Positions 36,615 to 60,072 of a stretch of 64,000 nt of DNA are shown here, piece by piece; positions within the stretch are counted from its first letter, which is position 1, and the number at the start of each line of letters is the position of its first letter. The translations under genes were made by a program, and so were the position numbers. Origin of the DNA: Sphingobacteriaceae bacterium (GTDB lineage: Bacteria; Bacteroidota; Bacteroidia; B-17B0; Aurantibacillaceae); contig NVQB01000001.1 in assembly GCA_002319075.1 (NCBI GenBank), positions 806,001 through 870,000 of the forward strand, in the 5' to 3' direction. The notes below the pieces were generated by a model. That model was not told the origin of the DNA, did not search any database, and was given only the letters and a program-made list of their open reading frames with translations.

Positions 36615-37535
36615 ATGGAACACAAACGAACAAAACGAATAAAAACCATTAGCGAATTTCATCGTTTAAGGGGCTTACCACAACCCGAACACCCACTGAT
36701 TAGTGTGGTAGATTATAGTGCCGTTCAGCGACCTGCCGATATTGCCGAAACAAATTGGGTATTTGATTTTTATCAAATTTCCATAAAGCGAGGAATAAAT
36801 GCCAAACTCAAATATGGACAACAAGAATACGATTTTGACGAGGGGATTATGTTTTTCATTTCGCCCAATCAGATTTTAAGGATTGAACCCGATAGTAAAA
36901 CAAAAGAAAAAAAATCAGGCTTTATGTTGCTTATCCACCCCGATTTTTTTTGGAATACACCACTTGCCAAAATTATTAAGCAATATGACTTTTTTAATTA
37001 TTCGGTAAATGAAGCCTTGTTTGTTTCTGGAAAAGAAGAAACAACTATTAACGGAATCATAGCAAACATTGAACAAGAGTACCATGCTAACATTGACAAG
37101 TTTAGCCAAAGCATTATCATTTCGCATATTGAGGCACTACTCAATTATTCAGAACGGTTTTATGAAAGACAATTTATCACCAGAAAAATTACCAATCACA
37201 AAATTCTTAATCGCTTAGAGGAACTATTGAATGACTATTTCAATAGCGATAATTTGATTTCAAAGGGGTTGCCAACCGTTCAATTCATTGCCGATAAACT
37301 TAATATATCGCCAAACTATTTAAGTGATCTGCTAAAAGTATTAACCGGGCAAAGTACACAGCAACATATTCACGACAAGCTAATTGAAAAAGCGAAGGAA
37401 AAATTATCTACAAGTAATTTATCAGTCAGCGAAATCGCTTATGAATTAGGCTTTGAACATTCTCAGTCTTTTAGTAAGTTGTTCAAAGTAAAAACTAATC
37501 AAAGCCCTTTGGAGTTTAGATCCTCATTTAACTGA
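36615..37535 (+). CDS. AraC-family regulator, paralog family member 2
   Basis: 306 residues. Begins TKRIKTISEFHRLRGLPQPEHPLISVVDY, with FYQISIKRGINAKLKYGQQEYDFDEGIMFFISPNQILRIE in the sensor half. The HTH half has LPTVQFIADKLNISPNYLSDLLKVLTGQSTQQHIHDKL and LSVSEIAYELGFEHSQSFSKLFKVKTNQSPLEFR. It is the last gene of the operon at 35415 and is highly similar to the regulators at 22158, 38852, 40817 and 42531. Confidence 0.93.
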   Translation: MEHKRTKRIKTISEFHRLRGLPQPEHPLISVVDYSAVQRPADIAETNWVFDFYQISIKRGINAKLKYGQQEYDFDEGIMFFISPNQILRIEPDSKTKEKKSGFMLLIHPDFFWNTPLAKIIKQYDFFNYSVNEALFVSGKEETTINGIIANIEQEYHANIDKFSQSIIISHIEALLNYSERFYERQFITRKITNHKILNRLEELLNDYFNSDNLISKGLPTVQFIADKLNISPNYLSDLLKVLTGQSTQQHIHDKLIEKAKEKLSTSNLSVSEIAYELGFEHSQSFSKLFKVKTNQSPLEFRSSFN

Positions 37536-37603
37536 CACTCAGTATTTGAGAAGTAATATGGCGAAAATTAGCGCCATTACATTGCCTATAAAATTCACGA
37601 TTT

Positions 37604-37659
37604 AGATACACTATTCATTGATTGGGCTAATTATACTATTTCGTTTCCAGCGATCTTTG
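37604..37659 (+). promoter_or_regulatory. AraC-type direct-repeat operator and -7 box, operon at 37688
   Basis: AGATACACT (37604-37612) and GGCTAATTA (37625-37633) are imperfect direct repeats 21 bp apart. GATCTTTG (37652-37659) is the -7 box, whose G is 34 bp after the second repeat starts. This is the most diverged of the five sites, but the geometry is exact. Confidence 0.6.
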
Positions 37660-37687
37660 TTCTATTATTTTAAAAATTTAGAAAAAA

Positions 37688-38527
37688 ATGGAAACAAAAA
37701 AAGTATGGCTTGTTACAGGGGCTTCAAAAGGTTTAGGGCTTAGTTTGGTGAAAAAATTATTACAAAATGACTATTGCGTGGTGGCAACAACACGGAATTC
37801 AAAATCTTTGATTGAAGAAATCAGCAACACTTCAGGAGTTTTTTTACCGTTAGAGGTGAACTTAACCGATAACATTGATGTCAAAAAAGCTATTGAAAAA
37901 AGCATTGCACATTTCGGGAAAATTGATGTAGTGGTAAACAATGCAGGCTACGGACAAATAGGAACATTGGAGGAATTAAGCGATGAAGAAGCAAGGGAAA
38001 ATTTTGATGTCAATGTTTTTGGTGCCCTGAATGTAATAAGAAATGCAATGCCTTATTTACGAAGGCAAAAGTCGGGCAATATCTTCAACGTTTCATCGGC
38101 AGGTGGATTTTTAGGAAGCTTTGCCGGTTGGGGCATTTATTGTTCTACAAAATTTGCAATGGCAGGGTTTACTGAAGCATTGGCAGAAGAGGTGAGAGAG
38201 TTTGGTATTAAAGTTTCTGTTGTTTATCCTGGGTATTTTCGCACCGATTTTCTTACCCAGGGTTCAGTAAGAACACCAAAGCAACCCATTCAGGACTATA
38301 AAGCTGCCCGACAATCCGAACAGGCACACCTTAAAAGCATTAGCGGTAATCAGCCAAACGATCCCGAAAAAGCGGCTGATGTTTTAATTGCCATTAGCAA
38401 AGAAGGAAATCCGCCTGTTCATTTGTTATTGGGCAATGATTCGTATGAAATTCTAAAAAATAAAATAGATATCATAACAGAGGATGCAGAAAAATGGAAA
38501 AGCTACACGTTATCCACCGCCTTTTGA
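37688..38527 (+). CDS. SDR-family oxidoreductase
   Basis: 279-residue classical short-chain dehydrogenase. TGASKGLGLSLVKKLL is the NAD(P) motif, VVNNAGYGQIG follows, then the catalytic Ser in IFNVSSAGGFLG and the Tyr-x3-Lys pair in IYCSTKFAMAGFTEAL. PGYFRTDF lies near the C-terminal third. Substrate unknown. It leads the third AraC-terminated operon, whose next gene overlaps it by 34 bp. Confidence 0.93.
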   Translation: METKKVWLVTGASKGLGLSLVKKLLQNDYCVVATTRNSKSLIEEISNTSGVFLPLEVNLTDNIDVKKAIEKSIAHFGKIDVVVNNAGYGQIGTLEELSDEEARENFDVNVFGALNVIRNAMPYLRRQKSGNIFNVSSAGGFLGSFAGWGIYCSTKFAMAGFTEALAEEVREFGIKVSVVYPGYFRTDFLTQGSVRTPKQPIQDYKAARQSEQAHLKSISGNQPNDPEKAADVLIAISKEGNPPVHLLLGNDSYEILKNKIDIITEDAEKWKSYTLSTAF

Positions 38528-38841
38528 TGGTGATAACATTTTTAAGTATAGGTTGTGTAAACAATAAAAATACAACAATGGAAAAAAGTAAAACAATAGA
38601 AGAAACCAAAGATTATATTGGTATGTGGGTAACAAAGGATGGTTACATTCGCCACGAACTATTACCCAATAACCGGTACGATGAGGCTCGTGGCAATCAA
38701 CAAAGTGCCTATCAGGGAGGTTTCAAGATCACCAAAAACCATATTGACTATAAAGACGACACAGGATTTACAGCAGACGGTGAATTTAAAGATGGTATCC
38801 TGTATCATGGAGGAATGATTTTGTACAAAGAAAAAAAGTAA
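38494..38841 (+). CDS. Atu4866-family lipoprotein
   Basis: 115 residues. The N-terminal segment MEKLHVIHRLLMVITFLSIGC has a charged head, a hydrophobic core and a lipobox-like LSIGC. The mature part matches the Atu4866 family: YIGMWVTKDGYIRHELLPNNRYDEARGNQQSAYQGGFKITKNHIDYKDDTGFTADGEF. The first ATG at 38494 overlaps the SDR gene by 34 bp; the alternative ATG at 38527 overlaps the SDR stop by one base but would remove the charged head. The function of this family is unknown. It is commonly placed beside SDR genes, as here. Confidence 0.85.
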   Translation: MEKLHVIHRLLMVITFLSIGCVNNKNTTMEKSKTIEETKDYIGMWVTKDGYIRHELLPNNRYDEARGNQQSAYQGGFKITKNHIDYKDDTGFTADGEFKDGILYHGGMILYKEKK

Positions 38842-38851
38842 ATTAGCATCT

Positions 38852-39766
38852 ATGGAAAAGACATATCGCTTTAATTCAATAGCTGAGTTTCATGCTTTTT
38901 GTAACCTCTCCAATCCAGAGCACCCACTAATCAGCTTGATTGATTACAGTAAGGTTTCTTACCCTATCAATGAAAGCAAGTTAAAATGGGTTCAGAATTT
39001 TTATTCTGTTGGATTAAAGCGGAATGTCAGCCATAAATTTAATTACGGACAACAAGAAATTGATTTTAATTCTGGAGTGCTGACCTTTGTTTCACCGCTC
39101 CAATTTCTAAAAGTGGAAATTAACCAGGATGTTGTAATTGAGCCAACAGGTTGTCTATTACTCATTCACCCCGATTTTTTATGGAATACCACATTAACAA
39201 AGAAGATAAAGTCTTATGACTTTTTTCAGTATGCTGTAAACGAAGCACTTTTCTTGTCTGACAAAGAAGAAAAGGTTATTGTGGATATTCTTCAAAATAT
39301 TGAAAAGGAATATCAGTCCAATATTGACAAATTCAGTCAGGATCTTATTGTTGCACAAATAGAATTGTTGCTTATTTATTCAGAGCGATTTTATGAACGT
39401 CAGTTTCTCACCCGGAAAAAATCCAATCACGAAATATTAATTAGTTTTGAAGAAGTGCTCTCGAAGAGCTTTGAAAGCGGAAAACTATCGGAAAATGGTA
39501 TTCCAACGGTAACATCTCTTGCTGCGCAGCTAAACATTTCACCTAACTACCTTGGGAGTTTATTGCGAATACATACTAGTCAAAACACACAACAACACAT
39601 TCAAAGCAAACTTATTGAATATGCAAAAGAGCGATTAAGCACAACCAATTTATCAGTGAGTGAAATTGCTTATGAATTAGGTTTTGAGCATCCTCAATCG
39701 TTCAGCAAATTATTTAAAAGTAAAAGTGGTGTGAGCCCTTTGGAGTTTAGAGCGAGTTTTAATTAA
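38852..39766 (+). CDS. AraC-family regulator, paralog family member 3
   Basis: 304 residues. It begins TYRFNSIAEFHAFCNLSNPEHPLISLIDYSK, the most diverged N-terminus in the family, and its HTH half has IPTVTSLAAQLNISPNYLGSLLRIHTSQNTQQHIQSKLI and LSVSEIAYELGFEHPQSFSKLFKSKSGVSPLEFR. The different sensor region suggests a different ligand from its paralogs. Last gene of the operon at 37688. Confidence 0.93.
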   Translation: MEKTYRFNSIAEFHAFCNLSNPEHPLISLIDYSKVSYPINESKLKWVQNFYSVGLKRNVSHKFNYGQQEIDFNSGVLTFVSPLQFLKVEINQDVVIEPTGCLLLIHPDFLWNTTLTKKIKSYDFFQYAVNEALFLSDKEEKVIVDILQNIEKEYQSNIDKFSQDLIVAQIELLLIYSERFYERQFLTRKKSNHEILISFEEVLSKSFESGKLSENGIPTVTSLAAQLNISPNYLGSLLRIHTSQNTQQHIQSKLIEYAKERLSTTNLSVSEIAYELGFEHPQSFSKLFKSKSGVSPLEFRASFN

Positions 39767-39867
39767 GTAGCTTTTACACATAGTACAGGAAAGAACATAG
39801 AACAACAAAAGCCTAAGTCCACCCACCGTCCCAAACGATTTGACTTTTAACAAAGACACATCATTTT

Positions 39868-39923
39868 GACTACAACGACAGCCGTTTTGGCTACATCTGT
39901 TTTTTGATATCGTTGCACTTTTG
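39868..39923 (+). promoter_or_regulatory. AraC-type direct-repeat operator and -7 box, operon at 39979
   Basis: GACTACAAC (39868-39876) and GGCTACATC (39889-39897), each preceded by TTTT, are 21 bp apart. CACTTTTG (39916-39923) ends in G 34 bp after the second repeat starts. Repeat 1 is identical to that at 35320. Confidence 0.78.
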
Positions 39924-39978
39924 CATCGCTTTGCAAAAAATTTGCAGTAGTATTAATCAACAAAAAAAACAATAAAAG

Positions 39979-40794
39979 ATGAAAACAGTATTGGTTACAG
40001 GAGCTTCGGCTGGAATAGGAAAAGCAACCGCAATTTTATTGGCACAGAACGGCTATAATGTTTATGGTGCTGCACGCAGAACAGAGAAAATGAAAGAGCT
40101 GAAAAATTTCGGAATTAAGCCAATTTCATTGGACGTTACCAAAGAAGAAAGTCTTGTTGCGTGTGTTGAACAAATTTTGAAAGAAGCAGGAAGCATAGAC
40201 ATTTTAATTAATAATGCAGGATCGAGCAATTTCGGTGCATTGGAAGATGTGCCCATTTCCGATGCAAGATATCTATTGGATTTAAACTTGTTTGGTGTGG
40301 CTCGTTTAATACAATTAGTGTTGCCTAATATGCGTAAAAATAACTACGGAAAAATTGTAAATATTTCATCTGTCAACGGTAAATTTAGTTTCCCAATGGC
40401 AGGCTGGTATGTGGCGAGTAAATTTGCCATAGAGGGTTTAAGCGATGCCCTTCGCTATGAAGTGAAGCAATTTGGTATTGACGTAATTGTTGTTGAGCCG
40501 GGCGGCACTAAAACAGACATAGCAGCAATATCAAGTGAATATTTAATGCGTATATCTGGTAAAACAGTTTACAAGGGATTGGCCAAAAGTGTAAATAATG
40601 CAATTTATGACCCAAAAATTGTAGCAGGTTATCCCGAACCTATTTCAATTGCGAAACTCGTAAAACAAGGCATAGATGCAAGTAAACCCAAAACAAGATA
40701 CGTAAACGGTGCTTTGATGAAATTTACCTTGTTTTTAAGAAGACTGCTGTCAGACAAAATGTTTGATAAAATGATAATTAGTCAACTTAAATAA
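39979..40794 (+). CDS. SDR-family oxidoreductase
   Basis: 271-residue short-chain dehydrogenase: TGASAGIGKATAILLAQNGYNVYGAARR, DILINNAGSSNFG, the catalytic Ser in IVNISSVNGKFS, and the Tyr-x3-Lys pair in WYVASKFAIEGLSDALR, followed by VEPGGTKTDI. Related to, but clearly distinct from, the SDR at 37688. Substrate unknown. It is the only enzyme of the fourth AraC-terminated operon. Confidence 0.93.
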   Translation: MKTVLVTGASAGIGKATAILLAQNGYNVYGAARRTEKMKELKNFGIKPISLDVTKEESLVACVEQILKEAGSIDILINNAGSSNFGALEDVPISDARYLLDLNLFGVARLIQLVLPNMRKNNYGKIVNISSVNGKFSFPMAGWYVASKFAIEGLSDALRYEVKQFGIDVIVVEPGGTKTDIAAISSEYLMRISGKTVYKGLAKSVNNAIYDPKIVAGYPEPISIAKLVKQGIDASKPKTRYVNGALMKFTLFLRRLLSDKMFDKMIISQLK

Positions 40795-40816
40795 ATTTCA
40801 TACAAAATTAGTATCA

Positions 40817-41746
40817 TTGTTTATGGCAAATACAATACCCACTAGAATAAAATCAATCAGTGAGTTTCATCGGCTGAGAGGCTTGCCAAAGCCTGAACAT
40901 CCTTTGATTAGTATAATAGTTATGGACGATACTCACCAGCCCAACTACAATCCTATGGATGCGGTGTTTGATTTTTATTTTATTGCATTGAAACGTATGA
41001 AAGGCGTAAAGTATAAATACGGGCAAAGCCACTACGATTTTGAAGAGGAGGGTGTACTGTTTTTTATGTCGCCTAATCAGGTTCTTAAATTTGAAATTAC
41101 TGAAAAAGAATTTACCGAAAAACCGTCAGGTTGGATTTTGCTCATACACTCCGATTTTATTTGGAATACGTCACTTGCAAAAACAATTAAGCAATACGAT
41201 TTTTTTGATTATTCAGTAAATGAAGCGTTGCAGTTATCAGAAAAAGAAGAAGTAACGCTAAACGGCACTATACAAAATATCAAACAAGAGTACCATTCAA
41301 ACATTGACAAATTCAGCAAAAAAATTGTCATTTCGTATATAGAGACGTTACTCAACTATTCAGAGCGGTTTTACAATCGTCAGATCATCACAAGAGAAAA
41401 AGCCAATCATCAAATACTTGACCGTTTGGAAAAATTATTGACAGATTACTTTAATAGTGATGATTTGATTTCAAAAGGTTTGCCAACAGTTCAATATGTT
41501 GCAGACAACCTAAATGTTTCACCAAGTTATTTAGGCAGTTTACTTAGAGTACTGACAGGGCAAAACACACAGCAACACATTCATGACAAGTTAATAGAAA
41601 AAGCTAAAGAAAAATTATCTACAACAAGCCTTTCAATAAGCGAAATTGCTTATGAATTAGGCTTTGAACATTCGCAATCATTCAGTAAATTATTTAAAAG
41701 CAAAAGTGGTATAAGCCCTTTGGTTTTTAGAGCTAGTTTTAATTAA
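40817..41746 (+). CDS. AraC-family regulator, paralog family member 4
   Basis: 309 residues. It starts TRIKSISEFHRLRGLPKPEHPLISIIVMDD, with FYFIALKRMKGVKYKYGQSHYDFEEEGVLFFMSPNQVLKFE in the sensor half and LPTVQYVADNLNVSPSYLGSLLRVLTGQNTQQHIHDKLIEKAKEKL plus LSISEIAYELGFEHSQSFSKLFKSKSGISPLVFR in the HTH half. Lies 22 bases after the SDR gene in the same operon. Confidence 0.93.
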   Translation: MFMANTIPTRIKSISEFHRLRGLPKPEHPLISIIVMDDTHQPNYNPMDAVFDFYFIALKRMKGVKYKYGQSHYDFEEEGVLFFMSPNQVLKFEITEKEFTEKPSGWILLIHSDFIWNTSLAKTIKQYDFFDYSVNEALQLSEKEEVTLNGTIQNIKQEYHSNIDKFSKKIVISYIETLLNYSERFYNRQIITREKANHQILDRLEKLLTDYFNSDDLISKGLPTVQYVADNLNVSPSYLGSLLRVLTGQNTQQHIHDKLIEKAKEKLSTTSLSISEIAYELGFEHSQSFSKLFKSKSGISPLVFRASFN

Positions 41747-41757
41747 GAGTCACTTTT

Positions 41758-41813
41758 GACTAAACAAAAGTCATTTTTGGCTAAACTTTTCTCTCGCAAT
41801 CGTTGCAATTTTG
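41758..41813 (+). promoter_or_regulatory. AraC-type direct-repeat operator and -7 box, operon at 41910
   Basis: GACTAAACA (41758-41766) and GGCTAAACT (41779-41787), both preceded by TTTT, are 21 bp apart. CAATTTTG (41806-41813) ends in G 34 bp after the second repeat starts. The first repeat begins only 12 bases after the stop of the preceding AraC gene. Confidence 0.75.
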
Positions 41814-41909
41814 CATAAACAAATAAATGATTTATGAATAGGTGCAGTCGTTGCCAAAATAAATCTAAAATTTTATTGAAACAAAATCATTTGAACACAA
41901 TATATTCCC

Positions 41910-42482
41910 ATGATCATCGCATTAATCTTATCAACAATAGCCATGTCAAATAGCACTCCAACCATTTCAATTCAGTCCAAATTAGCAGTGGCGCAAGAAT
42001 TTATCAGAGCTGTTGAGTCCAAGAATTTAGATTCTGTTGCCGCCACTCTTGCACCAGACGCGCAACAGTTTTTCATGCACACAAAAAGAACGAAAACAAA
42101 TGAAAGCCGTAATGATGTGATCTCCGGACTAAATAGAAAGGCCTTTTGCGTAGCGCTTCTTAAAAACAGAGAAGAAATTCTTGCCTATACTAAAGGTCTG
42201 TTCGGCAAGTTTACTCCATTAGTCTGGCTTAACCATGAATGGTCTACTTCATCAGACTCCAACCAAGTTATCTTTTCTGGAAAAGGGGGAATGATTGTTG
42301 AAAAAAATGGAAGGCCTTATAATAACGATTATGTTACGGTATTTGAGTTTGAGGGTGATAAAATTATTCGAATGTATGAGTATGGAGATGCGTTTTTGTA
42401 TTTTGGTCTCAGGATTTTACCAAACCGTATAGAACGTAAATCCTTTGTTCATGCATTTCAACATCTATTATCTTCAAAATAG
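41910..42482 (+). CDS. NTF2/SnoaL-like protein
   Basis: 190 residues. The hydrophobic N-terminus MIIALILSTIAMSNS is a weak signal-like segment. The rest has the SnoaL/NTF2 pattern: KLAVAQEFIRAVESKNLDSVAATLAPDAQQFFMHTK, then LVWLNHEWSTSSDSNQVIFSGKGGMIVEKNGRPYNNDYVTVFEFEGDKIIRMYEYGD, the end of the conical fold. Possible isomerase or small-molecule binder. It is the sole enzyme-like gene in the fifth AraC-terminated operon. Confidence 0.85.
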   Translation: MIIALILSTIAMSNSTPTISIQSKLAVAQEFIRAVESKNLDSVAATLAPDAQQFFMHTKRTKTNESRNDVISGLNRKAFCVALLKNREEILAYTKGLFGKFTPLVWLNHEWSTSSDSNQVIFSGKGGMIVEKNGRPYNNDYVTVFEFEGDKIIRMYEYGDAFLYFGLRILPNRIERKSFVHAFQHLLSSK

Positions 42483-42530
42483 TGTCGATAAGCTATAAGA
42501 TATTCATTTTTTACTTTTTATCTTTACAAT

Positions 42531-43454
42531 ATGGCAACACCGAAACTCATAAAGATAAATACAATATCAGAAGCACATCAATTTTTAGGATTGCCTAAAC
42601 CTGAAAATCCACTCATAAGTATTGTGAATTATGCTGAGTTTCAAATTCCAGAAGCTACCACAGAATTTAGAGCAACATTTGAGTTTTATTCCATTTCAAT
42701 AAAAAAGAATGTGAGAAATAAATTATATTACGGGCAACAACGATGTGATTTTGATGGAGGAATTATGTTTTTTATGTCTCCAAATCAAGTTTTGAGGGCT
42801 GAAATAGAATCTACCACAACAGTTGAAGAACCGTCAGGTTGGGTATTGCTCATTCATATTGATTTTTTGTGGAATACAACACTTGCTCAAAAAATGAAGC
42901 AATACGACTTTTTTAACTATGCTGCAAATGAAGCATTGTTTCTATCAGAAAAAGAGGAAGTTATCATTAACGGAATTATTCAAAATATTCAAAATGAATA
43001 TCAAAGAAACATTGATAAGTTCAGTAAACAGATCATCATTTCGCATATTGAAAATTTACTGAGTTATGCAGAACGATTTTACAATCGCCAGTTCATTACA
43101 AGAGAAATAAATAATCATCACATTTTAGAACATTTGGAAGTGTTGCTTAATGATTATTTTGCCGATAGTGATTTGATTTCAAAAGGACTGCCTACTGTTC
43201 AATTCATTGCTATAAAACTAAACATTTCATCCAATTATTTGAGGCGGCTTTTAAAAACGCTGACAGGACAAAGTACTCAACAATTTATCCACGCAAAACT
43301 GATAGAGAAAGCTAAGGAAAAACTATCTACAACAGACTTATCTGTGAGCGAAATTGCTTTTGAATTAGGCTTTGAGCATTTGCAATCGTTCAGCAAGTTG
43401 TTTAAAACGAAAAGTGGTATTTCTCCTTTAGAGTTTAGGCAGTCGTTTAATTAA
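42531..43454 (+). CDS. AraC-family regulator, paralog family member 5
   Basis: 307 residues. It starts LIKINTISEAHQFLGLPKPENPLISIVNYAE, with FYSISIKKNVRNKLYYGQQRCDFDGGIMFFMSPNQVLRAE, and its HTH half has LPTVQFIAIKLNISSNYLRRLLKTLTGQSTQQFIHAKLIEKAKEKL and LSVSEIAFELGFEHLQSFSKLFKTKSGISPLEFR. Fifth and last member of the family in the window, following the SnoaL-like gene by 48 bases. Confidence 0.93.
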   Translation: MATPKLIKINTISEAHQFLGLPKPENPLISIVNYAEFQIPEATTEFRATFEFYSISIKKNVRNKLYYGQQRCDFDGGIMFFMSPNQVLRAEIESTTTVEEPSGWVLLIHIDFLWNTTLAQKMKQYDFFNYAANEALFLSEKEEVIINGIIQNIQNEYQRNIDKFSKQIIISHIENLLSYAERFYNRQFITREINNHHILEHLEVLLNDYFADSDLISKGLPTVQFIAIKLNISSNYLRRLLKTLTGQSTQQFIHAKLIEKAKEKLSTTDLSVSEIAFELGFEHLQSFSKLFKTKSGISPLEFRQSFN

Positions 43455-47785: not shown

Positions 47786-48616
47786 ATGATAAAATCAAAA
47801 ACAGTAACACAAATCAAATTATCATTTTTAAGTATATTAATGACTTTGGCTGTAAATGCTCAAACAAAGTATACAATAAGTGGTACAGTAAAAGATAAAA
47901 AAACTGGCGAACAAATGATAGGCACAGTTATTAAAGTTGAAGAATTAAAAGGAACCGGAGTAGCTTGTAACGAGTACGGTTTTTATTCGTTGACTCTGCC
48001 TGAGGGAAACTATACTCTAAAAGCATCAATGTTAGGTTACGCTGATTTTGTATTAAAAATAAATTTGAACAAAAATACAAAGCAAGAAATTTTATTAGAA
48101 GACGCTGCTAAAATAATGGATGAAGTTGTTGTTAGTGCAGAGAAAAAAGACCAAAATGTTACTCAGGCACAAATGGGCGTAGAAACTATTGATATAAAGG
48201 AAATAAATAAAATACCTGTTTTAATGGGAGAAAAAGATGTTTTAAAAACTATACAACTTATACCGGGCATTAAATCGGCTGGAGAAGGAAATACAGGTTT
48301 TTATGTACGAGGTGGAGGCGCCGACCAAAATTTGATTTTGTTGGATGAAGCACCCGTTTATAACGCTTCCCACTTATTAGGCTTCTTTTCTACTTTTAAT
48401 TCAGATGCTATAAAAGATGTAGCAATTTATAAAGGTACTATGCCTGCTCAGTATGGTGGAAGACTATCATCTGCATTAGATGTTAAAATGAATAACGGAG
48501 ATGATCAAAAATTTCATGTAAAAGGAGGGCTTGGTATTATTGCATCAAAATTGGCTATTGAAGGGCCAATAGTAAAAAATAAAGGCTCGTTTTTTATAGC
48601 CATATTTGGAACTTAA
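47786..48616 (+). pseudogene. TonB-dependent receptor truncated after the plug domain
   Basis: 276 codons: signal peptide (about 1-30), carboxypeptidase-like regulatory domain (about 32-115: KYTISGTVKDKKTGEQMIGTVIKVEEL, then NEYGFYSLTLPEGNYTLKASMLGYADFVL), and the start of the plug (VLKTIQLIPGIKSAGEGNTGFYVRGGGADQNLILLDEAPVYNASHLLGFFSTFNSDAIKDVAIYKGTMPAQYGGRLSS). It ends at KNKGSFFIAIFGT, where a full receptor would run on for some 450-500 residues of beta barrel. The barrel is absent, and an invertase-type recombinase gene begins 18 bases later. Confidence 0.85.
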
Positions 48617-48633
48617 CCAAAAAACTATATTTT

Positions 48634-49227
48634 ATGAATTATGGGTATATCCGGGTAAGCACAGACAAACAAACAACAGAAAACCAACGTTTTGAAATTG
48701 AAAGGTATTGTCAGGGGCTAAACATAGTAATTGATGAGTGGATTGAAGAAACCATTAGCGCAACAAAAAAACTTGATGATCGAAAATTTGGCCAACTCTT
48801 AAAAAGAATGAAAAAAGAAGATCAGTTAATTGTGACAGAACTTTCCAGACTAGGGAGAAACCTTATGCAAATTATGAGCATTTTACACGGATGTATGGAG
48901 CGTGATATCAAAGTCTCAACAATAAAGGAACATTACGAATTGGGAAATAATATAAATTCCAAAGTGCTGGCTTTTGCCTTTGGCTTGTCAGCGGAAATCG
49001 AAAGAAACCTGATTTCTCAGCGTACAAAAGAAGCTTTGGCCAGACGGAGATCTGAAGGTGTTATTTTGGGCCGGCCTAAGGGTAGAAAATCCAATAACCT
49101 GAAATTAACCGGTAAAGAAGAGGAAATTAATACTTTACTCAAAAAGAAAGTGTCTTACAGCGCAATAGCCAGGATTATTGGGGTTCACAGGCTGACTGTA
49201 TCTACCTTTGTGAAAAACAAACTGTAG
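48634..49227 (+). CDS. Mpi-type serine recombinase (DNA invertase family)
   Basis: 197 residues. The catalytic resolvase domain has YIRVSTDKQT (Ser9), ELSRLGRNLMQIMSILHG and FAFGLSAEIERNLISQRTKEALARRRSEG, followed by a Hin-type HTH (INTLLKKKVSYSAIARIIGVHRLTVSTFV). It is closest in type to Mpi of Bacteroides fragilis, the master invertase that flips promoters of capsule loci. It begins 18 bases after the broken end of a TonB receptor gene. Similar imperfect sequences (TAGCC..ATATTTGGAA near 48597 and its complement-like AATTCCAATATTTTTGGCTA near 49242) border it. Confidence 0.9.
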   Translation: MNYGYIRVSTDKQTTENQRFEIERYCQGLNIVIDEWIEETISATKKLDDRKFGQLLKRMKKEDQLIVTELSRLGRNLMQIMSILHGCMERDIKVSTIKEHYELGNNINSKVLAFAFGLSAEIERNLISQRTKEALARRRSEGVILGRPKGRKSNNLKLTGKEEEINTLLKKKVSYSAIARIIGVHRLTVSTFVKNKL

Positions 49228-51586: not shown

Positions 51587-51799
51587 TTAGTCCTTTATTT
51601 CCGCCTTAAACCCCGCCTTCTCCACTTCCTTCTGAATATCCTCAGCGGACAGGTTTTCGGTTTCCACTGTTAAAGTTTTTTCGGGTGTGTAAATATCCAC
51701 TTCCCATTTATTGATTCCTTCTTTAGCGTCTAAAAAGGGAGTTACCTTTCCAACGCATCCCATGCATTTAATATTGGATTTAAATTTTAGTGTTTTCAT
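51587..51799 (-). CDS. HMA-domain metallochaperone-like protein
   Basis: 70 residues forming one heavy-metal-associated domain. Start MKTLKFKSNIKCMGCVGKVTPFLDAKEGINKWEVD with CxxC at about residues 12-15, then YTPEKTLTVETENLSAEDIQKEVEKAGFKAEI. It likely carries copper or a related ion, in keeping with the copper cluster 2 kb away. A -7 box TAACTTTG (complement at 51906-51913) puts about 100 bases of 5' leader ahead of it, containing a 12-bp hairpin. Confidence 0.9.
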   Translation of the reverse strand: MKTLKFKSNIKCMGCVGKVTPFLDAKEGINKWEVDIYTPEKTLTVETENLSAEDIQKEVEKAGFKAEIKD

Positions 51800-51833
51800 A
51801 TGTAGATTTTATTGTTTTTTAAGGTCTTATGGT

Positions 51834-51880
51834 ATAGCCATGTTAACTTCATTCCTTTTGCCTTTCGGTAACATGGCTAT
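51834..51880 (-). repeat. Inverted repeat in the leader of the HMA gene
   Basis: ATAGCCATGTTA (51834-51845) and TAACATGGCTAT (51869-51880) are exact complements with a 23-base loop. The element lies between the predicted -7 box (51906-51913) and the HMA start codon (51799), so it would form in the 5' leader. No T run follows directly. Role unknown; a leader control element or the terminator of the upstream MFS gene are options. Confidence 0.6.
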
Positions 51881-51968
51881 TTCATTTTTATGTTCTTTTG
51901 TTACACAAAGTTACTGCCACAGTATTCGCGGATTCTTATAGAATTCCAGGCAATCTGTATATAATTTT

Positions 51969-53360
51969 CTAGCCCAGTTTTTTTACGCGAACTACTCCGA
52001 TAATAACCGCCAGCGTACTAATAACGGCTGCCGCGATAAAAGCCACCTGGATGCCATGATTCATATTGGCGTTGCCCTTGATGGAAGCTGAGCTGATAGC
52101 TACAACGACAGCCAACCCTAAAGCCGAGCCGATTTGATAAGATGTATTCACTATTCCTGAAGCAAGGCCGGTTTCTTCTGGTTTGGCTCCCGACATGGAA
52201 GTTATAGTGCCGGGAATATAGGCCAGGGACATGCCAATGGCTCCTAAAATCGAAGCCGGAAGAACGTCTGTTGCAAAGCTTCCTGTCTCAGAAACATTGG
52301 CAAACAGCAGCAAGGATACGGTCAGGAACAAAAGTCCCAACACCAAAGTGCCTTTTACACCCATTTTTGCAATTACTTTGCCCGTTACGCTGGTCATCAT
52401 GATCATAATGACAATGGTCATAGGCAAAAGGGCCAAACCGCTCTTAAAGGCAGATAAATGAAGCACCTGCTGCAAGTAAATATTCAGGTAAAACCACAGC
52501 GGAATCCAGGCTGCCGCCAGGAGCATCATAACCAGGTTGCCGGTAGACAAATTAGGGATTTTAAATACCGATAAAGGCAATAAAGGGCTTGCCGACTTCT
52601 TTTGCAGCATGAAAAAGACCAAGAAAAGAATTACGGACACCGCGATCAGCGAAATGATTTTCACGCTACCCCAGCCTTCCGACTCAGCAGAAACAATTGC
52701 GTAAACCAAAGAAACTAAAGCAATGGTTGCCATCAGGGCGCCTGAGAGATCGAGACGACCTCTGTGAGTGTATCCTTTCACCAAGTATGTTTTGCTCACC
52801 ATCAACACAATTAATCCCAGGGGAATATTGATGAGGAATGTCCAGTGCCAGGAAAGCCATTCCGTTAATACACCGCCTAAAAAAACGCCTGCCGATCCTC
52901 CGGCAGCTGCCGAAGCGCCCCAAAAACCAAAAGCCTTTGCGAGCTCTTTGCCATCGGTAAAGATGGTCATGAGGAGTGTTAAAGCGGCTGGCGCAATTAA
53001 GGCCGATCCAACTCCTTGCAGTGCCCTGGCAACATTCATTGAAGTTTCAGACCAGGCCAGTCCTGCCAGCAGTGAAGCACCGGTCAAAACACCGAATCCC
53101 ATCATAAAAATCTTCCGGGGACCGAACAGGTCGGACAGTTTTCCGCCAAGAAGTAAGAGACCGCCCAAAAAGATCACATAGGCGTTAAAGATCCATTGGA
53201 GGTTGCTTGCTGAATAACCCAGGTCTTTTTGAATTGCAGGTAAAGCTACCCCTATTATAGAGGTATCCATAATAACCATGAACTGCGCGGTGCATAAAAC
53301 CGCTAATGCCGCCCAGCGCCTGGCGTTGGGAATGGCAATATGTGCTGTTGTTGTTTCCAT
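51969..53360 (-). CDS. MFS drug exporter, DHA2 (EmrB/QacA) type
   Basis: 463 residues and about 14 transmembrane helices. N-terminal motif RRWAALAVLCTAQFMVIMDTSIIGVALPAIQKDLGYS with the motif D1 region is diagnostic of the DHA2 family; GGKLSDLFGPRKIFMMGFGVL is motif A; a second symmetric half follows after TYLVKGYTHRGRLDL. It exports hydrophobic compounds using the proton gradient; the substrate is unknown. It is divergent from the first HMA-AraC hybrid gene at 53480, 119 bases away, and may be under its control. Confidence 0.92.
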   Translation of the reverse strand: METTTAHIAIPNARRWAALAVLCTAQFMVIMDTSIIGVALPAIQKDLGYSASNLQWIFNAYVIFLGGLLLLGGKLSDLFGPRKIFMMGFGVLTGASLLAGLAWSETSMNVARALQGVGSALIAPAALTLLMTIFTDGKELAKAFGFWGASAAAGGSAGVFLGGVLTEWLSWHWTFLINIPLGLIVLMVSKTYLVKGYTHRGRLDLSGALMATIALVSLVYAIVSAESEGWGSVKIISLIAVSVILFLVFFMLQKKSASPLLPLSVFKIPNLSTGNLVMMLLAAAWIPLWFYLNIYLQQVLHLSAFKSGLALLPMTIVIMIMMTSVTGKVIAKMGVKGTLVLGLLFLTVSLLLFANVSETGSFATDVLPASILGAIGMSLAYIPGTITSMSGAKPEETGLASGIVNTSYQIGSALGLAVVVAISSASIKGNANMNHGIQVAFIAAAVISTLAVIIGVVRVKKLG

Positions 53361-53479
53361 TGTTTTTTTCCTGCAAAACTATTGTGAGGAAGGCCTGGGG
53401 GTGTTGCACAATAACCGGTAAGTTGTACAAGATTTTAGATTTTTACACTTTAGATGCTTATGCGTATCTTAGCGGCACG

Positions 53480-54052
53480 ATGAAACTTGCTGTGAAAAAT
53501 ATGGTTTGTAACCGCTGCATCATGGTAGTGAAATCTATTTTTGAGAAGAATGGACATTCGCCCGCAACAATCACACTCGGCGAGGTGATCTTACAAGATG
53601 ATTCTATAACTGACTCCACTCTAAAAATTATTGACCAGGAATTATCTGACATGGGTTTTGAAAGAATAGACGATAAAAAAGTCAGGATCATTGAAAAATT
53701 GAAGAATATTATTGTGAGTAAAATTCATCATACCGATTATGTGGATGTGAAATTTAATTGGTCGGCTGTTTTATCTGATGAACTTCGCATCGATTATAAT
53801 TATCTCAGTACACTTTTTTCTTCCGTAGAAGGTATTACGCTGGAACACTATATTATTAAACAGAAAATTGAACGTGTAAAGGAACTATTATTCTACGACG
53901 AGTTAAACTTGAGTGAGATCGCCGACAAGCTGGGTTATAGCAGTGTGCAGCATTTATCAAGTCAGTTTAAGAAAATGACCGGTTTTACGCCGTCGCAGTT
54001 TAAAAAATCACATCCCTCTGAACATTCACGCAGAAGCCTGGATTCAATTTGA
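53480..54052 (+). CDS. HMA-AraC hybrid regulator 1
   Basis: 190 residues. The N-terminal part (about 1-70) has HMA-like beta-alpha-beta with CxxC in VKNMVCNRCIMVVKSIF (Cys10, Cys13). A middle helical segment leads to an AraC HTH at about 115-185: GITLEHYIIKQKIERVKELLFYDELNLSEIADKLGYSSVQHLSSQFKKMTGFTPSQFKK. A metal-binding sensor fused to an AraC DNA-binding domain suggests a copper-type regulator. The ATG at 53480 follows a variant -7 box (TATCTTAG, 53465-53472) and fits the CxxC position; an in-frame start at 53306 lies inside the divergent gene. Confidence 0.85.
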   Translation: MKLAVKNMVCNRCIMVVKSIFEKNGHSPATITLGEVILQDDSITDSTLKIIDQELSDMGFERIDDKKVRIIEKLKNIIVSKIHHTDYVDVKFNWSAVLSDELRIDYNYLSTLFSSVEGITLEHYIIKQKIERVKELLFYDELNLSEIADKLGYSSVQHLSSQFKKMTGFTPSQFKKSHPSEHSRRSLDSI

Positions 54053-54137
54053 CAAAAGAAATTATATAAACTTTTCCGGGAGTTATGTAATGAGATAAAC
54101 TTGCACCCCTTTTATTTTTGCCCTGTAAATCATTCAA

Positions 54138-54698
54138 ATGGAACAGGTAGAAACAATTTCAGTGAAAGGCATGGTGTGTAGTCGTTGCATCATTACGTTA
54201 AAACAAGCCATCACCGATAAAGGCATGCGTGTTGCATCCATTGAACTAGGAAAAATAAGCGTTTATAAAACCGCTGATTTCTCTTATTGCACCTTAACGA
54301 CGCTAATTTCAATACTTGGATTTGAGATCCTATTAGATAAACAAGTAAAAATAATTGAACGCATTAAGGAGTCTGTTGTGCGTTATGTTTCATCGGCTGA
54401 AAATAAACAGAAGTTCTCTGAAGTGTTAAGTGATGAACTGAATATGAACTTCGATCAATTGAGTGGTATTTTTTCAAGCAGAGAGGGAATGACACTGGAG
54501 CATTATATAATCAAACAAAAAATTGAAAAGGTGAAGGGCCTGCTCACCAGCACTGAAGATTCAGTAACGGATATTTCATACCAGGTAAATTATAGCAGCG
54601 TTCAGCATCTTTCGCGCCAGTTTAAGGAAATAATAGGCGTAAATCCCTCACGATACAGGGAATTGGCCCAACAGAAAAGATATAAAGTAAAACAGTAA
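54138..54698 (+). CDS. HMA-AraC hybrid regulator 2
   Basis: 186 residues, a paralog of the gene just before it: HMA-like MEQVETISVKGMVCSRCIITLKQAITDKGMRVASIE with CxxC at Cys14/Cys17, then AraC-like REGMTLEHYIIKQKIEKVKGLL and SVTDISYQVNYSSVQHLSRQFKEIIGVNPSRYR. A -7 box TATTTTTG lies at 54113-54120. It precedes the copper ATPase and is a probable copper-responsive activator or repressor. Confidence 0.87.
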   Translation: MEQVETISVKGMVCSRCIITLKQAITDKGMRVASIELGKISVYKTADFSYCTLTTLISILGFEILLDKQVKIIERIKESVVRYVSSAENKQKFSEVLSDELNMNFDQLSGIFSSREGMTLEHYIIKQKIEKVKGLLTSTEDSVTDISYQVNYSSVQHLSRQFKEIIGVNPSRYRELAQQKRYKVKQ

Positions 54699-54756
54699 TT
54701 CTATAAAATAGTCGCCTCTAAACAACCGTACCTTTGAATTGTTAAAACGAATTAAA

Positions 54757-56973
54757 ATGAGCACCACACTAAACAAACAAACTTTTCCCGTTCTCGAAAT
54801 GACTTGCGCCGCCTGTGCGGTAAGTGTTGAATCCATTCTAAAAAACACCAAGGGTGTAAAAAACGCAAGTGTCAACTATGCCAATCAACAGGCGCAGGTG
54901 GAATGGGATGAAAAACTGATCGACGTTAACGGAATTCAAAATGCTGTACGTTCTATCGGTTACGATTTATTGATTAACACCGAGAACGCCAGCGAAAAGC
55001 AGGAAGAAATACAACAGCAGAACTTCAAACAATTAAAATTAAGAACCATTTGGTCGGCGGTTTTGGCTGTACCGGTTGTTATCATCGGGATGTTCCTGAT
55101 GGATCTTCGCGGCGCGAACTGGATCTCTCTCACATTAACCGCACCAATCATATTTTATTTTGGCAAAAACTATTTTATCAGCGCTTTTAAGAAGCTGAAA
55201 CACCGCACGGCCAACATGGATACATTGGTTGCACTCAGCACCGGGATCGCTTTCCTATTCAGCACATTCAATACCATATATCCTGAATTCTGGCATTCCC
55301 GCGGATTACACGCCCATGTATATTTTGAGGCTGCTGCGGTAATTATCGTCTTTATATCCCTGGGGAAATTATTAGAAGAACGGGCTAAATCCAACACCTC
55401 GTCTGCGATTAAAAAGTTAATTGGCCTTCAACCAAAAACGGTAAAAGTTCTAAGGGAGAATAAAGAAATAGAAATACAGTTATCGGAAGTAACGGCAGGA
55501 GAAATTATTATTGTAAGGCCAGGAGAAAAAATTCCGGTAGACGGTCTTGTTCAAGAAGGAAAATCGTTCGTAGATGAAAGCATGATAAGTGGGGAACCTG
55601 TTGCGGTTGAAAAGACCCCAGGCAGTAAAGTTTTTGCAGGGACACTCAACCAAAAGGGTACTTTCAAATTCAAAGCAGAAAAGGTGGGAAGCGATACGTT
55701 ACTCGCACAAATAATCAAAATGGTTCAGGAAGCCCAGGGAAGCAAGGCGCCGGTTCAGAACCTGGTAGATAAGATAGCGGGAATCTTTGTACCGGCGGTT
55801 ATTGGCCTGGCAATTCTTACTTTCGTTGTTTGGATGGTTTTTGGTGGAGACAATGCTTTCACGCACGCACTCTTAAATTCTATTACCGTGTTGGTTATTG
55901 CATGTCCTTGTGCGCTTGGATTGGCTACTCCAACTGCTATTATGGTAGGTATTGGACGAGGCGCTGAAAATAATATCCTTGTAAAGGATGCCGAGAGTTT
56001 AGAAATTGGACATCAGGTGAATGCTTTAATCCTTGATAAAACCGGAACGATTACAGAAGGACACCCAGAAGTTACAAATCTTACCTGGCTCAAAGAAGAA
56101 AATAAAAAGGAAATGCAAAACGTTTTGTTCACCATGGAGTCCCGGTCTGAACACCCGCTTGCAGAAGCGGTTATTAAGCTTCTTAACAGCGATGAAGTTT
56201 CCCTCACCGGACTTCAGAATTTTGAAAGTCTAACGGGATTAGGAATTAAAGCGGAGTATAACGGATCTGTCTATTACGTAGGCAACAAAAAGCTGATGCA
56301 GCAGCAAGGAATCGCCAGCAGTAAAATTGATGATACTGTTTCAAAGTGGCAGGCAGAAGCGAAAACAGTTGTATTCTTCGCCAACAGTACCCAAGCGATC
56401 GCTTTGATAGCGATTGCCGACAAGGTGAAAGAAACGTCAAAGGCTGCCATCGCACAGTTACAAGAACGCGGCATTGAAGTATATATGTTAACCGGGGACA
56501 ACCACCTGACTGCTCAGTCAGTTGCAAAACAAGTCGGCATTCGCAGCTTTCAGGCAGATGCCCTTCCTTCAGATAAAGCCGCATTTGTAAAGAAGCTCCA
56601 GGCAGAAGGAAAAGTGGTTGCCATGGTTGGAGATGGGATCAACGACAGTCATGCTTTAGCTCAGGCGGACCTGAGTATTGCCATGGGTAAAGGCTCTGAC
56701 ATAGCGATAGATGTTGCAAAAATGACCCTGATTACCTCCGACCTTCAATCGATTCCTAAAGCTCTGAGATTGTCAAAGCTTATTGTGAGAGGAATAAGAC
56801 AAAACTTATTTTGGGCCTTCATCTACAACCTGGTAGGCATCCCGATTGCAGCTGGAATATTGTACCCGGTAAATGGCTTCTTACTGAATCCTATGATCGC
56901 CGGGGCGGCTATGGCACTTAGCTCTGTTTCAGTAGTTGCTAATAGCCTACGTTTAAAAATCGCAAAACTTTAA
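54757..56973 (+). CDS. P1B-type heavy-metal ATPase, probably copper
   Basis: 738 residues from the ATG at 54757 (an in-frame TTG at 54739 is rejected because of the -7 box TACCTTTG at 54729-54736). N-terminal HMA with [12 protein letters not shown] (Cys17/Cys20), about eight membrane helices, the A-domain motif SGEPVAVEK, the CPC metal site VIACPCALG (Cys383, Pro384, Cys385), the phosphorylated Asp in [11 protein letters not shown] (Asp427), SEHPLAEAV and [13 protein letters not shown] plus CAAC indicates Cu(I) export. It heads the operon ATPase, HMA-DUF3347, multicopper oxidase. Confidence 0.95.
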
Positions 56974-56994: not shown

Positions 56995-57846
56995 ATGAAA
57001 AACTGGAAAATAAAAATAACCACACTGCTTGCCGCAATTGGCTTAGTTTCAGTGTCAACACTACAAGCTCAAAATAAAAATGTAGTTAAAGAAACGTATA
57101 AGGTGTCGGGTAACTGCGGCATGTGTAAAAAAACGATTGAAACTGCGGCCACCAAAAAAGCAAGTGATGCAGAATGGAGCGAAGAGAAAAAAGAATTAAA
57201 AGTCAGTTACGATCCTGGAAAAACCAATGCTGATGAAATTCTCAAAGCCGTTGCATATTCTGGTTACGACAATGAAAAATACTTTGCTCCCCAAGCTGCA
57301 TATTCCAAATTGCCCGATTGTTGCCAATATGAAAGATCTGCGAAAGCTTTAGCATCCAATAAGAACGCATACAATAAAACCGATAAAGAACAATCACCAG
57401 GAAGTCAACAGGAAAAAGTCGCTTTAGAATCTGTTTACGCTTTGTATTTTTCCGTAAAAGACGCTCTGGTAAAAACAGATGCCAATACCGCTTCCTCAAA
57501 GAGTAAAGAACTTATGAACGCACTGAGCATGGTAAAAATGGAATCGTTGAATGCCGATCAACATAAAGTTTTTATGAAATACGTTTCTAACCTTAAAACA
57601 GATGCTGTGAGTATTGGTGAAAGTAAAGATATTAGCAAACAAAGAGAGCATTTTACTACTCTATCACAAAACATGTACGAAGTCATGAAAGGAATTAAAC
57701 CTTCATACACCGTTTATTTAGACCATTGTCCAATGTTTAATGATGGCAAAGGCGCGAACTGGGTGAGCAAGGAATCTGCAATTAAAAACCCTTATTACGG
57801 TTCGCAAATGATGACCTGCGGTAAAATTTCAGAAACGAGCAAATAA
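56995..57846 (+). CDS. HMA + DUF3347 exported protein
   Basis: 283 residues. Signal peptide (about 1-26, ITTLLAAIGLVSVSTLQAQ); an HMA domain with NCGMCKKTIETAATKK (CxxC) at about 40-95; a His/Cys linker (PDCCQYERS); then a DUF3347 domain (about 145-280) with YALYFSVKDALVKTDANTASSKSKELMNAL and ending with HCPMFNDGKGANWVSKESAIKNPYYGSQMMTCGK, the C-x-M and C-x-type copper-site pattern typical of DUF3347 and CusB-associated domains. It is an exported copper-binding protein between the ATPase and the multicopper oxidase. Confidence 0.88.
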   Translation: MKNWKIKITTLLAAIGLVSVSTLQAQNKNVVKETYKVSGNCGMCKKTIETAATKKASDAEWSEEKKELKVSYDPGKTNADEILKAVAYSGYDNEKYFAPQAAYSKLPDCCQYERSAKALASNKNAYNKTDKEQSPGSQQEKVALESVYALYFSVKDALVKTDANTASSKSKELMNALSMVKMESLNADQHKVFMKYVSNLKTDAVSIGESKDISKQREHFTTLSQNMYEVMKGIKPSYTVYLDHCPMFNDGKGANWVSKESAIKNPYYGSQMMTCGKISETSK

Positions 57847-57852
57847 ATTATT

Positions 57853-60072
57853 ATGAAGTCTTTCAGGATATTAATTTTATTCATGCTGTGCACTTTGAAC
57901 CAATTAGTGGCACAAAAAAAAGTGAGGTATGATTTGTACGTGCGCGATACATTGGTGAATTTTGCAGGCAAGGAAAAACACGCCTATGCGGTTAACGGCC
58001 AGATTCCAATGCCTGAACTGCATTTTACAGAAGGTGATACTGCTGAAATTTTTATTCATAACGAGCTAAGGACTGAAACATCCATCCACTGGCATGGACT
58101 AATTATACCCAACGAACAAGACGGTGTACCGTACCTCACAACCGCTCCAATAAAAGCAAAAACTACGCACCTCTATAAATTTCCCATTGTTCAGAGTGGC
58201 ACTTATTGGTATCACTCACATACCAAATTACAGGAGCAAAGCGGAATGTATGGTGCTTTTATAATTCATAAGCGCAACGCTCCGCCAATGAAAGAGTATA
58301 CGTTGATATTAAGCGATTGGACAAACATGAAGCCTTTTGAAGTTCACCGCAGGCTTCACATGGCAAACGATTGGTCTGCTATTAAAAAAGCGAAGATTCA
58401 AAAAGGGGCGGTACAAAGTTATGGCGATGCCATCGCAGCCGGAAGCCTGAAAACGAAATTTACCAACGAGTGGAAACGCATGTTAGCCATGGATGTGAGC
58501 GATGTGTATTACGATAAATTCCTGTCTAATGGAAAACCTGAAATCGAAGCGCCACAGTTTAAAGCAGGTGATAAAGTGAGGGTAAGGATTATCAACGGGA
58601 GTTCCTCTACTTATTTCTGGCTCAACTATGCCGGCGGACAAATGGAAGTCGCTGCGAGTGATGGCATGGACGTTGTTCCGGTGCCGGTTGACAGGATGAT
58701 CATAGCTGTAGCAGAAACATACGACGTTCTGCTAACGATACCGGAAGACAGCGTTGCCTATGAGTTTTTAGCCACTTCAGAGGATCGCATCAGAAACACT
58801 TCTCTATGGCTGGGCAGGGGCACAAAACAGCTCGCATCACCGTTAAAGCCTTTAAAGTATTTTGATGGAATGAAGATGATGAACGACATGATGAAAATGA
58901 ATGGTAACCTGGATGACATGGGCATGAACATGAGTCTTCAGCAAATGGATATGAATGTAGTGATGTATCCTGAGATCACCGGTGAAAAAGAAGAAAAAAA
59001 AGATCATGATCATGACTCCCGGCTGGATAACGACCGTTATAATAGCAACGCTCTGTCTGATATTGTTACTTTGAACTACGCGATGTTAAAGTCGCCGGTA
59101 AAAACGACATTGCCTGCCGGGCCAACCCGGGTTCTGAACTTTACGTTATCGGGAAATATGAACCGCTATGTTTGGAGCATTGATAACAAAACGGTTTCTG
59201 AAACGGATAAGATCTTAATCAAAAAGGGAGAAAACATACGCATTGTACTTTATAATAATTCTATGATGCGCCATCCCATGCATTTACACGGACATTTTTT
59301 TAGAATCGTAAATGGATATGGAGACTATTCGCCACTTAAAAATGTACTGGATATAATGCCCATGGAAACCGACACTATTGAATTTGCAGCTACGGAAAGT
59401 GGCGACTGGTTTTTCCACTGCCATATTTTATACCACATGATGAGTGGAATGGGAAGAATCTTCAGTTATGAAAATTCGCCGCCAAATCCGCAATTGCCAA
59501 ACCCTGAGAAGGCCATTAAAAAACTTTATAAGGACGACCGGGAATTTCACTTCATGGTTCAGAATGATTTTGCCAGCAATGGAAACGATGGTGAAATGAT
59601 GTACATGAACACTCGTTACAATCTTCAGGCTGAATGGCGATTGGGTTATAATGACATGCACGGTTATGAAGTTGAAACGCACTTTGGAAGGTACATTGGA
59701 AAAATGCAATGGCTGTTTCCATATGTCGGAATAGATTATCGTTACAGGAAAATGGGAATAGATGAAGTTGAAAAAAATATTTTCGGGCAGAAAAACACAA
59801 AAGACATTCGCCAGGCTCTGTGTTTTGGTGTGCAATACACTTTACCACTGCTGATTGTAGCGGATGCACGCTTCGATACAGATGGCAAGCTTAGGTTATC
59901 GCTGATGAGAGAAGACATTCCACTTACAAAGCGTTTACGCTTAAATTTTATGGGCAATAGCGATCTTGAATACATGGCCGGCTTCAAGTATGTCCTGGAT
60001 AAAAACTTTTCACTCTCGGCCCATTATGACAGTGACATGGGGCTTGGTGGTGGCTTTACGTTTACCTACTAG
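57853..60072 (+). CDS. Multicopper oxidase with C-terminal barrel-like extension
   Basis: 739 residues. Signal peptide (about 1-22), then the three cupredoxin domains of a CopA-type oxidase with ligand clusters HWHGLIIPNEQDG, YHSHTKLQEQSG, HPMHLHGHFF and FHCHILYHMMSGMG. A Met-rich segment (about 335-380, MKMMNDMMKMNGNLDDMGMNMSL and HDHDS) can bind copper. After the last ligands a further 190 residues (EWRLGYNDMHGYEVETHFGRYIGKMQ...FTFTY) look like a CopB-type beta-barrel piece. Likely a periplasmic Cu(I) oxidase with an outer-membrane anchor. It lies 6 bases after the DUF3347 gene. Confidence 0.92.
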   Translation: MKSFRILILFMLCTLNQLVAQKKVRYDLYVRDTLVNFAGKEKHAYAVNGQIPMPELHFTEGDTAEIFIHNELRTETSIHWHGLIIPNEQDGVPYLTTAPIKAKTTHLYKFPIVQSGTYWYHSHTKLQEQSGMYGAFIIHKRNAPPMKEYTLILSDWTNMKPFEVHRRLHMANDWSAIKKAKIQKGAVQSYGDAIAAGSLKTKFTNEWKRMLAMDVSDVYYDKFLSNGKPEIEAPQFKAGDKVRVRIINGSSSTYFWLNYAGGQMEVAASDGMDVVPVPVDRMIIAVAETYDVLLTIPEDSVAYEFLATSEDRIRNTSLWLGRGTKQLASPLKPLKYFDGMKMMNDMMKMNGNLDDMGMNMSLQQMDMNVVMYPEITGEKEEKKDHDHDSRLDNDRYNSNALSDIVTLNYAMLKSPVKTTLPAGPTRVLNFTLSGNMNRYVWSIDNKTVSETDKILIKKGENIRIVLYNNSMMRHPMHLHGHFFRIVNGYGDYSPLKNVLDIMPMETDTIEFAATESGDWFFHCHILYHMMSGMGRIFSYENSPPNPQLPNPEKAIKKLYKDDREFHFMVQNDFASNGNDGEMMYMNTRYNLQAEWRLGYNDMHGYEVETHFGRYIGKMQWLFPYVGIDYRYRKMGIDEVEKNIFGQKNTKDIRQALCFGVQYTLPLLIVADARFDTDGKLRLSLMREDIPLTKRLRLNFMGNSDLEYMAGFKYVLDKNFSLSAHYDSDMGLGGGFTFTY

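Follow-up and report, generated by a model that had tools for sequence, protein, structure and literature searches.

Which protein reports cytosolic copper to the copper genes of Bacteroidota is the question raised by two tandem regulatory genes in the 64,000-nucleotide stretch of a Sphingobacteriaceae genome analysed here (hereafter the window). Genomic surveys recognise no one-component copper sensor in this phylum: one reports two-component and ECF homologues as the only copper systems there and no CueR outside Pseudomonadota (PMC10141476). In a Flavobacteriaceae species, candidate MerR and CopY proteins lack copper sites, and no copper regulator could be assigned to the copA genes, none adjoining them in the usual arrangement (PMC11213822). 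Our comparisons suggest that the two regulators belong to a family, here called HMA-AraC, which is probably the copper sensor that Bacteroidota were thought to lack. We consider it likely that both would act as one-component cytosolic Cu(I) sensors and class-II-type transcription activators.

A preliminary description of the window had proposed two paralogs of 190 and 186 amino acids, each joining a CxxC ferredoxin-like metal-binding domain to an AraC helix-turn-helix (HTH) domain and unrelated to CueR, CopY or CsoR. Both open reading frames were found on the plus strand, REG1 at 53480–54052 (190 aa; C10-x-R12-C13) and REG2 at 54138–54698 (186 aa; GMVCSRC), and M-V-C-x-R-C is present in the N-terminal domain of each. 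The C-terminal domains match HTH_18/AraC with 62 and 63.8 bits (Pfam cut-off 33.6), and HTH_18 and HTH_AraC both exceed their Pfam cut-offs in the two proteins, which therefore carry the two-HTH arrangement of the AraC/XylS family. No CueR/MerR, CsoR or CopY family model appears among the NCBIfam or Pfam matches of REG1 and REG2, and the proposed lack of kinship with these regulators holds for both fold and family. The first 65 residues are less readily recognized: the Pfam HMA model gave no match at E ≤ 1 for either protein, hence none above its gathering cut-off, and the NCBIfam CopZ model matched REG2 only, and weakly (E 2.9e-4). We nevertheless assign this region, from the profile comparisons below, as a divergent HMA-like domain, the Pfam cut-off being a detection threshold.

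We aligned 254 full-length members of the family, drawn from named genomes and from a sample of the phylum, with the three copies of the organism's own genome (257 rows). M8, C13 and G34 are present in 255–256 of the rows (C13 in 255), and R12 is present in 250, making the arginine of C-x-R-C nearly invariant; position 10 is a cysteine in 224 rows and a serine in 31. When the family profile was compared by hhalign with a CopZ-type HMA profile, the two matched at 98% (E 2.2e-13) over residues 3–63 with the CxxC in register, as against at most 1.2% for control profiles of unrelated families; the REG2-type clade alone still matched HMA at 97.6%. A profile search of the PDB with the N-domain returned nearly exclusively HMA proteins, led by Cu-ATPase 2 (E 2e-9); Cu-ATPases and CopZ scored between E 2e-9 and 1e-4, and Zn or Hg proteins trailed a long way behind (E > 0.5). 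The AlphaFold model (pLDDT 91) consists of a beta-alpha-beta-beta-alpha-beta unit followed by a helix and two HTHs; structural matches of the C-domain are AraT, MarA, SoxS and Rns (Z 12–15), and those of the N-domain, which is small, are GolB, Atx1 and CopZ (Foldseek E 5e-3). ACT-type domains reach similar Z values, so that the fold by itself is insufficient for HMA identity and the sequence decides. On that ground, the N-domain of the family is a CopZ/Atx1-like HMA domain predicted to bind Cu(I); the ferredoxin-like half of the earlier proposal is thereby borne out by hhalign, PDB profiles and AlphaFold.

The copper-cluster setting was likewise confirmed with Pfam and NCBIfam models. Downstream of REG2, after a gap of 58 bp, the plus strand encodes a CopA-type Cu(I) P-type ATPase (54757–56973; TIGR01511 609 bits, cut-off 397), a secreted HMA-like protein with DUF3347 (56995–57846) and a multicopper oxidase of the CopA/PcoA type (57853–60072). 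Divergent from the regulators lies the gene of a DHA2/EmrB-type MFS transporter (51969–53360, minus strand) with a predicted operator upstream; sites also precede genes of this transporter family in two of the three relatives scored. The next gene on the same strand (51587–51799) encodes a 70-aa CopZ-like HMA protein (Pfam HMA E 1.7e-7), a probable copper chaperone.

Is the combination of domains peculiar to this locus? Counterparts of the N-domain plus linker were detected in 138 of the 296 Bacteroidota genomes sampled, and with such recurrence across the phylum the combination is not a product of chance. Accordingly, the "distinct design" of the preliminary description stands as a metallochaperone-like domain on an AraC domain, by homology, gene order and operator, but not as a locus-specific invention. 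Existing annotation of the family reads just "AraC family transcriptional regulator", and copies on Bacteroidota plasmids are labelled AraC family, response regulator or HTH-domain protein; PHROGs and NCBIfam hold no dedicated family model, and a search of viral contigs returned no relatives. Our literature search, confined to open-access full text, turned up no account of a copper regulator of the HMA-AraC type, although one may be published elsewhere.

Among the best 80 named loci, the recurrent order is regulator, CopA and HMA chaperone, accompanied by DUF3347, multicopper oxidase or Cus genes. In the phylum sample, a P-type ATPase lies at most six ORFs away from 77 of 116 C-x-R-C members as against 2 of 26 members with S-x-R-C (Fisher p 2.6e-8, an optimistic value in that kindred genomes are counted as independent, though the contrast is large); about one-third of the sampled C-x-R-C members are without a nearby P-type ATPase. 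Homology, conserved gene order and the common operator described below strongly support the prediction that an HMA-AraC protein controls the copper cluster. Several soft metals can bind HMA domains, and the metal sensed might be mainly Ag(I), Zn(II) or another ion; one plasmid relative situated directly 5′ of an SO_0444-type Cu/Zn efflux gene would fit such a reading. We hold it to be very improbable, as the genes around these regulators encode Cu-type ATPases, multicopper oxidases, DUF3347 and a four-helix copper-binding protein.

The S-x-R-C members have PAS-kinase, response regulator and cupin genes as neighbours, and in this sister class evolution has in effect point-mutated the presumed Cu(I) ligand. 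One of them is the third paralog of the present organism (L226:5935–6630; about 431010–431534 on C1 of its own genome); beside it, at C1:431872–431933, the best operator match of the genome precedes an operon of three genes, one of them for a YceI protein. S-x-R-C members use the operator type of the C-x-R-C class without copper genes. Since C13 is retained even here, the N-domain could alternatively be a metal-fold relic in which thiol oxidation or another signal acts through the second cysteine, its place beside copper genes being explained by copper stress generating that signal. This seems to us quite improbable: virtually every member close to copper genes retains the first cysteine, whereas the class away from such genes has lost it, as expected of a two-thiolate Cu(I) site, and the profile matches of the N-domain are Cu-ATPases and CopZ. 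The two classes provide a natural C-to-S comparison for the gain or loss of metal sensing. At least three consecutive HMA-AraC genes of the S-x-R-C type were also seen in a genome of the same family (L290; G352:C259).

Where might these proteins bind? An order-0 EM motif search of 180-bp upstream sequences drifted into GC-rich coding sequence and was discarded; the search that worked used intergenic DNA only and tested repeat periods. The predicted operator is the direct repeat TTnYRYAA-N13-TTnYRYAA with a period of 21 bp, the only prominent one among periods of 15–30 tested in upstream regions, mainly before CopZ, CopA and regulators. The −7 box of Bacteroidota is TAnnTTTG. When 30 distinct sites were aligned by the repeat alone, T was found at +55 in 29 and at +56 in 28; these positions, which had played no part in the search, belong to the TTTG of that box, so that the proximal half-site coincides with the expected position of the −33 element. 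TAnnTTTG follows the second half-site by 21–22 bp, which is the class II arrangement, a site over the −33/−35 element at a fixed distance.

A position weight matrix (PWM) trained on other loci, with the window held out, was used to score both strands of the 64 kb. The four top sites all fall within the copper cluster (next best score, 7.1), and in all of them the proximal half-site is followed, exactly 22 bp on, by a perfect TAnnTTTG. The best (PWM 29.7; whole-genome E 2.3e-4) precedes REG2 (54062–54120, plus strand), with half-sites TTATATAA (54062–54069) and TTATGTAA (54083–54090) and the −7 box TATTTTTG (54113–54120). The MFS site (53374–53432, minus strand; PWM 20.9, whole-genome E 0.0014) comprises the proximal half-site TTGTGCAA (53411–53404), the distal TTGTACAA (53430–53423) and the −7 box TAGTTTTG (53381–53374), and departs from the consensus in the 19-bp period of its half-sites. 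Before the 70-aa HMA gene (51906–51964, minus strand; PWM 17.1, whole-genome E 0.0078) lie TTATATAC / TTCTATAA and the −7 box TAACTTTG (51913–51906). The fourth site, before copA (54678–54736, plus strand; PWM 8.9), is weak and falls below threshold in the whole-genome search: its distal half is off consensus (AGATATAA / TTCTATAA, the latter at 54699–54706; −7 box TACCTTTG, 54729–54736). The TTG at 54739 stands directly behind this predicted −7 box, and ATG 54757 is therefore preferred as the copA start. Each of the binding regions proposed earlier (53361–53479, 54053–54137 and 54699–54756) thus contains a predicted operator, the site before the 70-aa HMA gene being additional. No predicted operator faces REG1's own gene, whose upstream region is common with the MFS site; REG2 and copA are probably both under the control of the strong site preceding REG2.

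Searching the whole genome (5.65 Mb) for the regulon with a sequence-only model gave four matches only at E < 0.01, namely the REG2, MFS and 70-aa HMA sites and the one at the third paralog's YceI operon; a fifth candidate (C1:2779701, E 0.14) was rejected for want of a convincing adjacent gene. Cross-validated PWM scores of at least 8 were obtained for 71% of 129 CopA and 79% of 33 CopZ upstream regions, as compared with 0 of 800 shuffles. The operator (E ≤ 0.001) occurs in 78 of 296 genomes, 75 of the 138 with the regulator and 3 of the 158 without (p 1.3e-27). Two of the three operator-only genomes have a regulator by family-profile search, giving 77 of 78, this deeper search having been applied to the exceptions only. 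Discovery of the operator began near the regulators' own loci, a biased start of which the window and whole-genome tests are independent.

The proximity of the predicted operator to the promoter would suit either mode of control. CopY and CsoR are repressors whose apo forms block promoters until Cu(I) releases them, and REG1 and REG2 might be copper-responsive repressors, or dual regulators, of this kind. We consider this unlikely: the proximal half-site stands in for the −33 element at a constant 22 bp from the −7 box, which is the geometry of a class II activator, and most AraC-family proteins are activators. It is from the position of the sites only that we infer activation rather than repression.

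Computation has established the homology of the domains, the conservation of the cysteines, the linkage to copper genes, the operator with its promoter geometry and the co-occurrence in genomes; the activator model starts from these. The C-x-R-C loop of the N-terminal HMA domain would bind Cu(I), perhaps supplied by a CopZ-type chaperone through HMA–HMA docking, and loading would reposition the HMA domain, linker helix (66–84) and HTHs relative to one another. Two protomers would then bind the 21-bp-period direct repeat, an operator defined by comparative genomics. With its proximal half-site in the −33 place, 22 bp from TAnnTTTG, a spacing seen directly in the sites, the bound protein would recruit RNA polymerase as a class-II-type activator and switch on REG2-copA-DUF3347-multicopper oxidase, the divergent MFS gene and the CopZ-like gene.

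Such a regulator would resemble CueR, the MerR-family Cu(I) activator of copA, as a cytosolic one-component activator of the CopA exporter with an expected two-cysteine metal site. Unlike the HMA-AraC proteins, however, CueR has an unrelated fold and DNA-binding domain and distorts a long promoter spacer, whereas HMA-AraC proteins are predicted to use a direct repeat that precedes the −7 box; none of 148 genomes contained CueR above the curated cut-off. With CopZ/Atx1 metallochaperones and the HMA domains of CopA the family shares the fold and the M-x-C-x-x-C loop, but it is fused to a DNA-binding domain, has C-x-R-C with the nearly invariant arginine and escapes Pfam HMA detection. Its two-HTH domain is that of AraC/XylS proteins (AraC, MarA, SoxS, Rns), with an HMA domain in place of their cupin-type ligand domain, and the 21-bp direct repeat resembles the I1-I2 sites of AraC. 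The CsoR and CopY repressors also control copper exporters but belong to unrelated families. CsoR was found in 44 of 148 genomes, mostly ones without HMA-AraC, a pattern resting largely on one family; mutual exclusion of the two was not retained (p 9e-8 overall, p 0.25 without that family). A CopA-type ATPase above cut-off is nearly universal (139 of 148 genomes). If the model is correct, Bacteroidota would have the one-component copper sensor missing so far, a chaperone-type domain wired to an AraC activator, and its defined operator would offer a testable regulon in many genomes.

Five other loci have two consecutive C-x-R-C copies in conserved order. In the tree, the first copies, including REG1, form one clade (100/98) and the second copies, including REG2, another (95/95), the latter being less certain owing to long branches. 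This split implies an old pair kept in several families rather than a local duplication, and the division of labour or heteromer proposed earlier for REG1 and REG2 is plausible. It is tempting to speculate, albeit with considerable doubt, that HMA-AraC is a general cytosolic Cu(I) sensor in much of Bacteroidota, loaded by chaperones from HMA to HMA, that REG1 and REG2 form a heteromer with one protomer per half-site, and that S-x-R-C proteins are derived sensors of another signal using the same operator type.

Further features of the window may be recorded. A strong hairpin with a 12-bp inverted repeat, ATAGCCATGTTA/TAACATGGCTAT (z −4.3), lies in the leader of the 70-aa HMA gene, downstream of its predicted promoter (51800–51905, minus strand), and is possibly an attenuator or RNA element. 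At 36615–43454, a series of four related AraC regulators, each about 305 aa long, alternates with short-chain dehydrogenases and small ORFs, and a fifth similar one lies at 22158. An FAD-dependent monooxygenase in two consecutive frames (31535–32682) is probably a broken gene. At 47786–49227, the frame of a TonB-dependent receptor stops after the plug domain (276 aa), with a serine resolvase gene 18 bp further on, a picture suggestive of a truncated receptor next to a mobile element.
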